Shown here: positions 11,425-32,299 of the stretch, piece after piece
Layout of the letters: every line of letters starts with the position of its first letter
Position numbering within the stretch: the first letter of the stretch is position 1
The notes under the pieces: model-generated
What the model saw: only the letters and a program-made list of their open reading frames with translations
What the model was told of the DNA's origin: nothing
Database searches by the model: none
Assembly: GCF_001559775.1 (NCBI RefSeq)
Contig: NZ_LOHX01000141.1
Location: forward strand, 1-32,299
Direction of reading: 5' to 3'
DNA: 32,299 nt
Source: Streptobacillus felis
GTDB lineage: Bacteria; Fusobacteriota; Fusobacteriia; Fusobacteriales; Leptotrichiaceae
Program-made: the position numbers and the translations under genes

Positions 11425-13068
11425 ATGCAAAAGAAAAAAAATGCTATCATAGCATTTATGCTTTTAAGTTTTTTAGGTTATTCAAATTATACTAATGATG
11501 AAATTGATCAAAAAATCAATGAATTAAGAACAGAAATGCAAATGAACTATCTTAATAGAGCTAATGGAAGATATATTTTGCAAAGATATGATAATGGATT
11601 AGGTAATGATTTATCAAGAGCAAACAATTCTATAGCCTATGGTTTAGAAAATTCTATAAATGGTGATGAAAGCCTTGCACTAGGATATATTAACATACTT
11701 GGTGATAATAATATGAAATCGAATTATAGTTTAATTACTGGATATAGAAATAAGGTTTATGGTAGTAATAGTGCAGTAGTTGGAAGTAATATTAAAATAA
11801 ATGAAGCAAAAAATTCTGAACATGGTCATGATATATTTGTATTAGGTTCTAATATTTCTGTGGAAGGATTTAAAGATGGAATAATTTTAGGTAATATGTC
11901 AGTAGGTAAAGAAAATGCATTATCTATAGGTAGTGAGATTAAAAAGAGAAAAATAGTATTCTTAAAAGATGGAGAAGTAAGTGAAGATAGTAGTGAAGCT
12001 ATAACAGGGAAACAGTTATATACAGGAGAAAGTATTAATGTTGAAAAATGGAAGGAAAAATTAGGGATAGGAGAAAATTCTGTAGATAAACCTGAATTAG
12101 TAATACTTGACCAAAAAAAATCTAATCAAGCTGGTAATGATGTATGGAATGGTACTTCTAATGATTCTTTTGCATTAGGACATTATAATATTGTTGAAAA
12201 GAATATGGATAATAGTATTGCAAATAATACTTACATATTAGGTAGATCTAATACTACTTCTGGTTCTTTTAATCAAGTTATTGGATATAATAATAAGGTT
12301 AGTGGTAGTAATAGTACAGTTATAGGGAATAATAATATTGTTAATGAAGGTAAAAATTCAGAATATGGACATGATGTATATATTTTAGGTTCAAATATTA
12401 ATGTTGAAAGTAATGTAAAGGATGCTATAATTTTAGGAAATGATTCTAAAGCGATTTCTAACGCTTTATCTATAGGAAAAATTGACAAAACTAGAAAAAT
12501 AGTTTTTCTATCTAAAGGTGAAATTAGTGCTGAAAGTACAGAAGCTGTAAATGGTGCTCAGCTTTATGAGGAAAAAGAAGAAAGAAAAGAGCAAATAAAA
12601 GCATTAACTGATAATGATAAAAAAATAGAAAATAAAATTAAAAATTTAGAAACTAATAAGGCTGATAGAACTGAAGTTAAACAATTGATAGATGAAAAAG
12701 TAGATGGTCTTGTTTTTGAAAATTCAAATATGGAATTAAATAAAAAAGTACAGGAAATAAGGAAAGAAGTTACATCTGCTATAGCAATGGCAAATATTCC
12801 TAGTTTATTACCAGGTAGTAAATTTTCTATAGGTGCAGCTGTAGGGACTAATAAAGGAAATAGTGCATTTGCAATGGGTGTTAATGGGAAATTAGGTAAT
12901 TTTGGATATAAGGCAAGTTTAGGAATTGCAGGTCATAAAAATGTTAGCTTTGGAGCAGGACTATCATATAGCTTTGGTAAAGAAGAAAAGGTAAATAAAG
13001 ATTTAAATGAAAAGATAAATAAATTAGAACAAGAAATATTAGAATTAAAAAATATGTTGAAAAAATAA
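11425..13068 (+). CDS. Trimeric autotransporter adhesin (YadA-like)
   Basis: This 547-residue type Vc secreted adhesin is expected on the cell surface as a trimer. Order: signal peptide (1-20, IIAFMLLSFLGYS); short coiled coil; YadA-type head repeats (SxAxGxxN-like, 66-180); neck 1 (EDSSEAITGKQLY, to 199); a second head module (about 240-360); neck 2 (AESTEAVNGAQLY, to 381); coiled-coil stalk (382-448); and four-strand membrane anchor (about 449-518, with SAIAMANIPSLLPGSKFSIG). Residues 102-199 and 283-381 are diverged copies of each other. Unlike most family members, the protein does not end at the last beta strand. A further 29-residue coiled coil (519-547) follows. The ligand is unknown. 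It has a consensus promoter and cre-like sites upstream. Confidence 0.9.
   Translation: MQKKKNAIIAFMLLSFLGYSNYTNDEIDQKINELRTEMQMNYLNRANGRYILQRYDNGLGNDLSRANNSIAYGLENSINGDESLALGYINILGDNNMKSNYSLITGYRNKVYGSNSAVVGSNIKINEAKNSEHGHDIFVLGSNISVEGFKDGIILGNMSVGKENALSIGSEIKKRKIVFLKDGEVSEDSSEAITGKQLYTGESINVEKWKEKLGIGENSVDKPELVILDQKKSNQAGNDVWNGTSNDSFALGHYNIVEKNMDNSIANNTYILGRSNTTSGSFNQVIGYNNKVSGSNSTVIGNNNIVNEGKNSEYGHDVYILGSNINVESNVKDAIILGNDSKAISNALSIGKIDKTRKIVFLSKGEISAESTEAVNGAQLYEEKEERKEQIKALTDNDKKIENKIKNLETNKADRTEVKQLIDEKVDGLVFENSNMELNKKVQEIRKEVTSAIAMANIPSLLPGSKFSIGAAVGTNKGNSAFAMGVNGKLGNFGYKASLGIAGHKNVSFGAGLSYSFGKEEKVNKDLNEKINKLEQEILELKNMLKK
11728..12567 (+). repeat. Internal tandem duplication of the adhesin head-neck module
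   Basis: Codons 102-199 (11728-12021) and 283-381 (12271-12567) encode related modules. Shared landmarks in order are GYxNKVxGSNS, NExKNSExGHD, ILGSNIxVE, IILGN, NALSIG, RKIVFL and a neck ending in QLY. Each module is about 98 residues. The DNA copies have diverged. Confidence 0.75.
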
Positions 13069-28091: not shown

Positions 28092-28123
28092 ATGCCCTTT
28101 CAAAAAATGTTTTAACAATAAAA

Positions 28124-28159
28124 GGAGAATCCTAATTTTTTAGTATTCTCCATTTTTTT
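28124..28159. terminator. Terminator closing the gyrB-thiN operon and the opposing envelope operon
   Basis: GGAGAAT (28124-28130) / ATTCTCC (28145-28151) is extended by an inner CTAA/TTAG stem and followed by seven Ts (28153-28159). TTTTATTG follows in the reverse direction. The 159-base gap 28002-28160 holds no other gene, only a possible small-RNA promoter. Confidence 0.85.
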
Positions 28160-28160
28160 G

Positions 28161-28652
28161 TTATCTAAAGTTAATAATTATACTATTTTCAACTAGGTAT
28201 GCACTTTTAACATCTTTAGGATATCTATAGCTGTATATTTCAGTATTGTCTAAAGTTGCATACACAACAGCATTAGTAATTTGTTTTATTACTTCATCTT
28301 GTATATTACCTTTTACTTCTTTAACTCTTACATTTTTAGTATAAATTTTACCATCTTGAACTCTAATATCACTTTCTAAATGAACTATTGCAGTTTGTGA
28401 TGTTTTACCAAATAAAGCACCAACTACAGAACTAGTTTCAGCTGAAAGAATAATGTTTAATCTATAGTCTTTTACATATACATCTCTGATAGTAATTTCA
28501 CCTTTTGCAAGGAATAAGTCTATTCTATTATCCACCTTCTGTGCTAAGTTTGCACGAATTTCACTGTTTGGAACACGGTAATCAGTAACATTTAACATAG
28601 TACATGAAAACATCGTGAAACCAAATAAAATTGCCATTAAAAATTTTTTCAT
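28161..28652 (-). CDS. Lipoprotein, perhaps DUF1439/YceB-like
   Basis: This 163-residue protein has a lipoprotein signal peptide (MKKFLMAILFGFTMFSC, Cys17). The mature part begins with a conserved-looking helix (VPNSEIRANLAQKVDNRI), then beta strands (AKGEITIRDVYVKDYRLNI) and a late helix (QDEVIKQITNAVVYATL). The layout recalls the lipid-cradle YceB/DUF1439 group, but this is weak. It is the last gene of a minus-strand operon, 20 bases after the barrel gene, behind AAAGGAG. Envelope location is secure; function is not. Confidence 0.65.
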   Translation of the reverse strand: MKKFLMAILFGFTMFSCTMLNVTDYRVPNSEIRANLAQKVDNRIDLFLAKGEITIRDVYVKDYRLNIILSAETSSVVGALFGKTSQTAIVHLESDIRVQDGKIYTKNVRVKEVKGNIQDEVIKQITNAVVYATLDNTEIYSYRYPKDVKSAYLVENSIIINFR

Positions 28653-28672
28653 ATTATATCACTCCTTTTTTA

Positions 28673-29278
28673 TTAAAAACTAAATTTTGATCCTATACCT
28701 AGAGTAAAATATTGAGGATAACCTGCACTTATTTCACTAGTGAATCTATTTTTGTAAGTAAATCCGAATTTTGCTTTTACAGAAAATTTATTTATAGATT
28801 TATCATTTACAATATAATGATAAGAACCTAAAGAAGCACCAGTATATAATTTGTAGTCATCTTTAATTTTTCCACTTACTTCAGTTAAAATAAATGGTGA
28901 AATGAAAGGATGTATATTTTTAACTGATTTAATATATGTATTTTTCTCTAGCTCTAATTTTTCTTTTTCTTCACCATTTGAAGATGATATTTTTTCTTCA
29001 TAATCTTTTACTTTATCTTCAAATTTTTTTTCTTCTTCATTACTTAATATTTTTTTACTTATACCACCTAGTAATCCAGTACCTAGATTTACATTTATAG
29101 GATATTTTTTTATTCTTATTACTTTAGATAATGAAAGTTCAATACCTCCATCTAAAGAAGTATTGTTCATTTCTGTACTTTGAAATCCACTTATACTTCC
29201 TTGGCCTAGTACTTTAACTTCTGTCTCTGATAGGCTAAAAATAGATGTAAAAATGAATAAAATTAAAAACTTTTTCAT
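28673..29278 (-). CDS. Small outer-membrane beta-barrel protein
   Basis: This 201-residue protein has the signal peptide MKKFLILFIFTSIFSLSETE, alternating beta strands (GGIELSLSKVIRIKK, VNLGTGLLGG, KFSVKAKFGFTYKNRF) and a C-terminal FSF ending typical of BAM substrates. An acidic and basic helical insert at about 80-113 (EEEKKFEDKVKDYEEK) forms a predicted coiled coil in one loop. Eight strands are plausible. It lies 14 bases after the upstream lipoprotein gene. The family is not recognised. Confidence 0.65.
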   Translation of the reverse strand: MKKFLILFIFTSIFSLSETEVKVLGQGSISGFQSTEMNNTSLDGGIELSLSKVIRIKKYPINVNLGTGLLGGISKKILSNEEEKKFEDKVKDYEEKISSSNGEEKEKLELEKNTYIKSVKNIHPFISPFILTEVSGKIKDDYKLYTGASLGSYHYIVNDKSINKFSVKAKFGFTYKNRFTSEISAGYPQYFTLGIGSKFSF

Positions 29279-29292
29279 AATATCAACAACCT

Positions 29293-29682
29293 TTATTTAA
29301 ATTCTAAACTATTAACTTTTTCACCATCAACATTTACAAGATCATACATAGCTCCAGTTGATTTATCAATTAAATGTCCTCCTGGAACAAAAATATTTCC
29401 AACTATATATGCTAATACATTTGTTTTAGGTAATATTGCTACAGTTTTATCTCCTGATGTTATAAAATATTTTGCACCTACACCTGATTGGTTATCTATT
29501 CTTTTTAAGTTTACAAATAAAGTTCCTTTACCCTTTTTTAATACATTACCTTTTTCATCTTTAACTATAATTTCTTTTCCTGAATTAGATCTAATATCTA
29601 ATGGTTGATGTAAACCATTAACTATACTTGAACAACTAGTTAAAGCAAAAATTGTAGAAATTAATATTAGTGATTTTTTCAT
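29293..29682 (-). CDS. Small PEGA-like lipoprotein
   Basis: This 129-residue protein has a clear lipobox (ALTSC, Cys17). The mature part reads SSIVNGLHQPLDIRSNSGKE, then IIVKDEKGNVLKKGKG, the short beta layout of PEGA-like proteins, and ends with GGHLIDKSTGAMYDL. The IDxxTGAMYxL segment recurs in small envelope lipoproteins of many Gram-negatives. The start overlaps the stop of the metal-binding protein (ATGA), so the two are translationally coupled. Confidence 0.65.
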   Translation of the reverse strand: MKKSLILISTIFALTSCSSIVNGLHQPLDIRSNSGKEIIVKDEKGNVLKKGKGTLFVNLKRIDNQSGVGAKYFITSGDKTVAILPKTNVLAYIVGNIFVPGGHLIDKSTGAMYDLVNVDGEKVNSLEFK

Positions 29683-30572
29683 TTTTTATTTACCTTTCTA
29701 AGTGCTGAAATAATTCTGTCAAAATTCTTTTCTAAGTCTTTTTCAAAAGTATCTTTTGCATACTTACCATTAGTCATGTGCAGCAATTGTTCAACTACTA
29801 CTCCAGTTTCTTTTTGAATTGCCTTTGTGTAAGGAGAACTTGCACCATCAGATTCAAAAAGTATATCAATTTTATATTTCTTTATTAAATCTATAGCTAT
29901 TTTTAAATCATTTGCACTAGGTTTATTATGATTTTTAGGTTCTATAACTACTCCAACCTTTATTCCTAATTCACCAAGTATATAGTCATAACCACCGTGA
30001 GTTGTTGCTACAGTAAGATTTTTACCTTTTCTTAATTCAGCTATTTCTTTTATTTTTTTTGATTTAATATTAGATAATTTTTTACTATAATCTCTTGCAT
30101 TTTTTAAAAAATAACTTCCATTTGCACTATCTAGTTTAGCTAATTCTTTTGCTATAGTATTTATTTGTTGAATTGAAGCTTGTGTAGATATAAATGTATG
30201 AGTATTAACTGATTTATTGCTTCCACGTTCACCTGAAACAGGAAGAAGTGAAACATTTTTATTTGAATTAATAATTACTATTTTCTTATTATTAGATGCC
30301 TTAACAAGATTATACATATAATCATCTATGCCTGTACCATTAATAATTATTACATCTAAATTAGCAATTTTTTTTACTTCATCTGGTGATGGTTGATATG
30401 CATGTACATCTACATCTGCAGGTAAAATTTGTATAACTTCTGCCCTTTCACCTACAATATTTGAAGTAAATGAATAATAAGGTAGCATACTTACTCCTAT
30501 TTTAAGCTTTGCTAAAGACACATTACTTATTAATAATAGTAACATAATTAATTTAAAAACTATTTTCTTCAT
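29679..30572 (-). CDS. znuA: Metal ABC transporter substrate-binding protein (ZnuA/TroA type)
   Basis: This 297-residue periplasmic protein of the cluster A-I family binds Zn or Mn. The signal peptide ends near Ala21 (NVSLA). Expected ligands are His57 (DVHAYQPSP), His125 (VNTHTFIS), His192 (THGGYDY) and an acid in FESDGASSP (Glu240/Asp242). The His-rich loop typical of ZnuA is absent, so the metal is uncertain. No permease or ATPase gene is adjacent. Instead it heads an operon of lipoprotein, barrel and lipoprotein genes. A strong extended -10 promoter precedes it. Confidence 0.88.
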   Translation of the reverse strand: MKKIVFKLIMLLLLISNVSLAKLKIGVSMLPYYSFTSNIVGERAEVIQILPADVDVHAYQPSPDEVKKIANLDVIIINGTGIDDYMYNLVKASNNKKIVIINSNKNVSLLPVSGERGSNKSVNTHTFISTQASIQQINTIAKELAKLDSANGSYFLKNARDYSKKLSNIKSKKIKEIAELRKGKNLTVATTHGGYDYILGELGIKVGVVIEPKNHNKPSANDLKIAIDLIKKYKIDILFESDGASSPYTKAIQKETGVVVEQLLHMTNGKYAKDTFEKDLEKNFDRIISALRKVNKK

Positions 30573-30593: not shown

Positions 30594-30622
30594 ATTATAT
30601 CATTATTCAATACATATTTCAA
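30594..30622 (-). promoter_or_regulatory. Promoter of the znuA envelope operon
   Basis: On the minus strand, TTGAAA (30622-30617), exactly 17 bases and TATAAT (30599-30594), with the TG extension (TGATATAAT), make a near-ideal promoter. No Zur- or MntR-like palindrome is obvious. Confidence 0.75.
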
Positions 30623-32049: not shown

Positions 32050-32299
32050 CTATTTGAATAATAGGCCATTAGGGTTATAGAATTTATGAATAGGTCGGCC
32101 AAAAGCACTACTTACAAGAAGTTCATAAGCTTCAAGATAAATATTACAATTAGGACACATAAAAGGATCAAATTCCCAAATAGCTTTAAAGTTCTTTCTA
32201 AAAAGTGAAGGAACTTTTTTAAGTTCAATTTTAAATAAAGCAAGAGCTGATTTTAACTTATCAGATTTTCTTCTAGCATAGAAACCAAATCTATTAATC
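32050..32299 (-). mobile_element. IS91-family (Y2) transposase, C-terminal fragment
   Basis: Reading the minus strand from the window end to a TAG at 32052-32050 gives 82 residues: INRFGFYARRKSDKLKSALA near the edge, then WEFDPFMCPNCNIYLEAYEL and FGRPIHKFYNP. The order FGFYARR, DPxxCPxC and a short tail is that of the C terminus of Y2/IS91 transposases, which move by rolling circle using a two-tyrosine nuclease. The cysteine pair CPNC resembles the metal-ribbon end of such proteins. The gene starts beyond the window, so whether it is intact is unknown. Confidence 0.6.

Follow-up and report, generated by a model that had tools for sequence, protein, structure and literature searches.

The window analysed here (the whole stretch of 32,299 nucleotides) is contig C141 of the Streptobacillus felis genome G000, a draft assembly of 1.6 Mb in 349 contigs. 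It carries four minus-strand genes, all with ATG starts and separated by -4, 14 and 20 bases. The first encodes a metal SBP of 297 aa (SBP1, 29679..30572) and overlaps, in an ATGA, the gene of a small lipoprotein of 129 aa with the lipobox LTSC (LP1, 29293..29682). These are followed by the gene of a small presumed outer-membrane β-barrel of 201 aa (28673..29278), a class suggested by its sequence, and by that of a YceB/DUF1439-like lipoprotein of 163 aa (LP2, 28161..28652). Gene calls, coding statistics and homology bear out the four-gene operon and the ATGA coupling put forward in the preliminary description. G+C by codon position is coding-like in all four genes, with third-position values of 0.04-0.14. 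When the region was dinucleotide-shuffled 300 times, the longest stop-free stretch was 135 codons (mean 75), so that three of the four genes exceed every shuffle; LP1 lies below this maximum and its call rests on homology. On the same strand, a promoter-like TTGAAA-17-TATAAT (30594..30622) precedes the SBP1 gene and is kept in four Streptobacillus genomes. A promoter scan returned 19 sites against 22 expected from shuffles, and it is therefore conservation alone that supports this element. A terminator-like minus-strand hairpin (GGAGAAT...ATTCTCC followed by TTTTATT, 28110..28160; -17 kcal/mol, z -4.2) lies after the LP2 stop codon and was not listed by a consensus terminator scan. On either side of the unit lie nagA, which is divergent, and a gene read from its sequence as thiamine-pyrophosphokinase-like, which is convergent; as had been stated at the outset, neither the operon nor the listed flanking genes include a permease or an ATPase. 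Elsewhere in the window, positions 11425-13068 encode a trimeric autotransporter with a YadA anchor, and an open frame with a CPNC motif (32050-32298) runs off the window end. This frame has no Pfam match at E 0.01 and presumably resembles the end of a transposase.

SBP1 carries a signal peptide and matches the cluster A-I metal SBP profile PF01297 over its full length (155 bits for a cut-off of 29, profile positions 3-262 of 263). Its initial designation as ZnuA/TroA-like is correct at the superfamily level; the closest solved relatives are instead 6ru4, 6r3z and 6r6k (229-210 bits, the first two quoted at 229; next group 86 bits), which score 330-302 bits in a profile search. We take the 6r3z/6ru4 entry, a "probable adhesion protein", to be PA2407, the FpvC of Pseudomonas, and the solved structure nearest to SBP1 would thus be that of an FpvC-type SBP. 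SBP1 derives from the FpvC type of metal-binding protein, whose gene lies in a two-SBP importer operon. We write "derives from" rather than "is" because only four of six histidines are kept in Streptobacillus (see below).

The usual order of this importer operon, in other Fusobacteriota as well as in Pseudomonas and Variovorax, is DUF6162-SBP1-ATPase-permease-SBP2-small periplasmic protein. SBP1 orthologues, 40-48% identical, are preceded by a DUF6162-like gene and followed by the ATPase in G018, G021, G022, G028 (where the importer contig ends within the permease) and G029. G001 has two SBP1 copies, one of them in the importer operon, and in-operon SBP1 is also found in Fusobacterium, Pseudomonas and Variovorax loci; DUF6162 was undetected in loci L134, L166 and L167. 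Gene order in Pseudomonas was read by tblastn because ORF calling there gave spurious long frames. Contig C297 of G000 encodes, by Pfam, DUF6162, an ATPase, a permease, SBP2 and the small protein, and this genome therefore holds the ATPase, permease and second SBP of an FpvCDEF-type system. SBP1 is absent from its usual slot: one base separates DUF6162 from the ATPase. The same junction, with 1-11 bases between the two genes, occurs in all four Streptobacillus genomes searched (G000 and the three further members of the genus sample, G030, G031 and G032). None of the four encodes SBP1 in an FpvCDEF-type operon; the gene is found once per genome, always at the locus of the window. A similar situation is seen in G020, with an importer operon lacking SBP1 and a displaced SBP1. 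In G019, the first cluster has no ATPase between SBP1 and the permease, and a second DUF6162-ATPase-permease-SBP2-small protein cluster is found without SBP1 (G019:C1:1018000-1032000, locus L111). For SBP2, the PDB search gave no relative at E 0.01.

At cut-offs of at least 40% identity for SBP1 and at least 55% for the permease (next best matches 26% and 35%), 12 of the 33 family genomes have SBP1, and exactly these have the C297-type permease; since these 12 genomes are related, the independent co-occurrence events number fewer than 12. The suggestion that the metal protein feeds a transporter encoded elsewhere is thereby well supported, and that transporter can be identified because the C297-type operon misses SBP1 in its usual slot. 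We consider it likely, with a probability of roughly 0.78, that SBP1, displaced from the C297-type importer operon in Streptobacillus, still serves the C297 permease. In this lineage SBP1 left the importer operon and now heads a separate unit, translationally coupled to LP1, with the small presumed outer-membrane barrel next. In the periplasm, the protein would bind a divalent metal, with iron, zinc and manganese as candidates, through His57, His125, His192 and His265, and the loaded form would dock on the C297 permease and hand the metal over. The extra histidine pair of the in-operon relatives, 82 and 214, was lost upon leaving the operon. In favour of this reading, the two other PF01297 genes of G000 both lie inside ABC loci of their own; the preliminary description had named a second ZnuA at the znuBC locus, together with a missing response to metal, as a point against its own proposal. 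Against the reading, SBP2 could serve the C297 transporter alone. No operator shared by the regions upstream of the SBP1 and C297 units was seen by eye in Streptobacillus. Purifying selection on SBP1 is strong (dN/dS 0.08-0.12), and likewise on the ATPase (0.09-0.15) and the permease (0.07-0.12); values for SBP2 are 0.19-0.30. However, the neighbouring nagA has the same dN/dS as SBP1 (0.08-0.09; its G031 row ended in a partial codon), so that these values fail to single out a partnership between SBP1 and the importer.

The order SBP1-LP1-barrel is present in all four Streptobacillus genomes. A fixed four-gene system was rejected because LP2 lies at this locus in G000 only; of the fixed order initially proposed, the first three genes stand, within one genus, and the fourth does not. 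Outside Streptobacillus the gene order is not conserved: displaced SBP1 genes of other genera have no adjoining LP1 or barrel (the G020 contig ends just past SBP1), and the displaced copies of G001 and G020 follow a thioredoxin-like gene. What ties LP1 and the barrel to SBP1 is their neighbouring position in four related genomes, and both may be envelope helpers rather than chance neighbours.

LP1 is predicted to be mostly β and is distantly PEGA-like. The earlier PEGA-like label is plausible in that the distant relatives L139-L141 pass the PF08308 cut-off, but the protein of the window does not. Relatives of LP1 were found in 16 of the 98 genomes. Each of the four Streptobacillus genomes carries a second copy of LP1, which has small barrels as neighbours in G000 and in G032 but not in G030, and with none on the short G031 stretch examined. 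LP1 dN/dS is 0.10-0.31, and the protein has no conserved His/Cys cluster beyond the lipobox Cys. The best match of its predicted fold (VIA Z 6.3, Foldseek E 0.02) is a common β-sandwich and is not interpretable. The barrel evolves fast (dN/dS 0.36-0.52) and has a variable loop at about residues 77-118; the coiled-coil insert attributed to it is not conserved in three relatives. Its membership of the GPRYRVE barrel family was considered and dropped, hhalign giving only 75% over 22 columns. GPRYRVE-type barrels (about 180 aa) account for 45, 44 and 23 matched stretches in G030, G031 and G032, respectively, and for 3 in G000. A paralogue of LP2 (26-28%) is found elsewhere in all four genomes, beside a trpS-like gene in G000 and G032. 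The predicted fold of LP2 resembles that of Escherichia coli YceB (PDB 3l6i; TM 0.61, E 3e-6), and 13 of 19 LP2 relatives match DUF1439 (PF07273), but the LP2 of the window does not.

PA2407-PA2410 reportedly encode an SBP, an ATPase, a permease and an SBP in the pyoverdine cluster (PMC3195088), and FpvDE is reported to work with two binding proteins, FpvC and FpvF (PMC6954188, PMC3813593). FpvCDEF of Pseudomonas aeruginosa and the Streptobacillus genes have in common an FpvC-like SBP1, an ATPase, a permease, a second SBP and small periplasmic/membrane helper genes. They differ in that the Streptobacillus SBP1 lies outside the operon and has lost His82 and His214, and in the siderophore-related components. 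PepSY_TM (PF03929), which we take to be the reductase kind of FpvG, is over cut-off in none of the 33 family genomes. The TonB plug domain PF07715 is found in none of the nine genomes with a displaced SBP1, the four Streptobacillus among them, whereas it is found in all three genomes with an in-operon SBP1 only (G018, G021 and G022). The PepSY_TM reductase and TonB-dependent receptor of an FpvCDEF-type system are thus both missing from Streptobacillus. DUF4198, which 7 of the 33 family genomes have, is absent from the four Streptobacillus genomes. By their gene content, C297 and SBP1 constitute an Fpv-type importer core without siderophore parts, and iron is only one candidate metal. A TonB-dependent receptor gene lies divergent from the importer operon in Fusobacterium gastrosuis (L115 2945-5176). 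Equating DUF6162 with ZrgB of the Vibrio Zrg system proved wrong, ZrgB being a permease unlike these proteins (PMC9820375).

The distribution of the TonB plug domain, together with the constant SBP1-LP1-barrel order and the ATGA coupling, would agree with an outer-membrane metal acquisition module replacing TonB-dependent receptors, an enlarged version of what the preliminary description proposed, in which the barrel admits the metal, LP1 relays it and SBP1 carries it to C297. We regard this as doubtful. The TonB pattern may reflect one event in one clade, LP1 copies are found elsewhere with no SBP nearby, LP1 has no conserved His/Cys cluster apart from the lipobox Cys, and the displaced SBP1 genes of other genera have other neighbours, such as the thioredoxin-like gene.

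The displacement of SBP1 is accompanied by changes at specific histidines. 6r6k aligns like 6r3z, but Gly replaces six His, at positions 57, 82, 125, 192, 214 and 265 in the numbering of the window protein; we infer that these form the metal site studied by the depositors. SBP1 of the window keeps His57, His125, His192 and His265, the four candidate ligand histidines, and has Ile82 and Asn214 at the other two positions. Each of the four Streptobacillus copies retains four of the six. A search of the phylum, 98 genomes, gave 26 SBP1 copies spread over 20 of them, 17 in-operon and 9 displaced according to gene context (four in Streptobacillus and one each in G001, G019, G020, G028 and G029). The final residue count included all 18 Pseudomonas/Variovorax loci. 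All 35 distinct in-operon copies (42 rows) have His214, and none of the nine displaced copies does; there it is replaced by Asn (4), Tyr (3), Ser (1) or Val (1). His82 is found in 35/35 in-operon copies against 4/9 displaced copies. His57, His125 and His265 occur in all 44 distinct copies, and His192 in 31/35 in-operon and 9/9 displaced copies.

In a 16-row unrooted tree, Streptobacillus groups with G018/G021/G022 (98/96). This placement was a matter of rooting and disappeared once outgroups were added: Streptobacillus then joins the G001/G019/G020/G028/G029 copies (99/97). In this tree with outgroups, of 34 rows and including 8 of the 18 Pseudomonas/Variovorax loci, its sister group is a clade to which other genera contribute in-operon (98/87) as well as displaced (96/90) copies, and the loss takes two changes. 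For trees and alignments alike, the displaced G001 copy was read from an internal Met, which gives 269 aa. A single origin of the displaced copies, a group defined by gene context and AU-tested after a first tree, was rejected moderately (p 0.016 with 16 rows, 0.026 with 34 rows). SBP1 outside the operon thus probably arose twice, as far as the trees indicate. With only two events, histidine loss on displacement is a pattern and not a statistical proof. A broader scheme, which we think unlikely, would have displaced SBP1, in host-associated Fusobacteria that lack TonB-dependent receptors, repeatedly dropping second-site His to become a single-site carrier of free metal and, in Streptobacillus, a TonB-independent entry with lipoprotein and barrel feeding a distant two-SBP transporter.

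The loss of two histidines, and the extra SBP1-less cluster of G019, could also suggest that SBP1 stores or senses metal in the periplasm and no longer feeds a transporter, C297 running on SBP2 alone. Such a role seems quite improbable, given the strong purifying selection on SBP1, the retention of the four-histidine site in four Streptobacillus genomes and the exact co-occurrence of the protein with one permease type.

A comparable arrangement is known in Streptococcus pneumoniae, where AdcAII, a metal SBP, shares an operon with the surface protein PhtD (PMC3842936) and AdcA and AdcAII are SBPs sharing permeases (PMC8416893). The two cases are alike in that a metal SBP gene lies beside a surface-protein gene, the pneumococcal SBP serving the ABC transporter AdcCB. 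AdcCB is encoded elsewhere than AdcAII-PhtD. The cases differ in that AdcCB is also served by another SBP, AdcA, while SBP1 is the sole copy of its type, and in that PhtD binds zinc with histidine triads, a motif that Streptobacillus LP1 does not show. Permease sharing of the AdcA/AdcAII kind would allow SBP1 to serve the other metal importer of the same cell, C321 (SBP-ATPase-two permeases), but C321 encodes an SBP itself, with 20% identity to SBP1, and SBP1 tracks the C297-type permease and not that of C321, which makes this very improbable.

A literature search found no paper on the SBP1-LP1-barrel arrangement, and the accessible part of a Leptotrichiaceae genomics paper (PMC5093955) does not mention iron, manganese, TonB, ABC transporter or lipoprotein. 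With C297 as its partner, an apparently orphan metal protein can be tested as one half of an importer that has been split. In-operon and displaced SBP1 form natural pairs with a difference of one or two histidines, and these pairs can show the role of the extra FpvC-type histidines, in bacteria without siderophore machinery. Two tandem SBP1 genes are found in the importer operon at loci L112, L161 and L162 (Fusobacterium sp., G049 and G050), the first copy having Met or Leu in place of His192.
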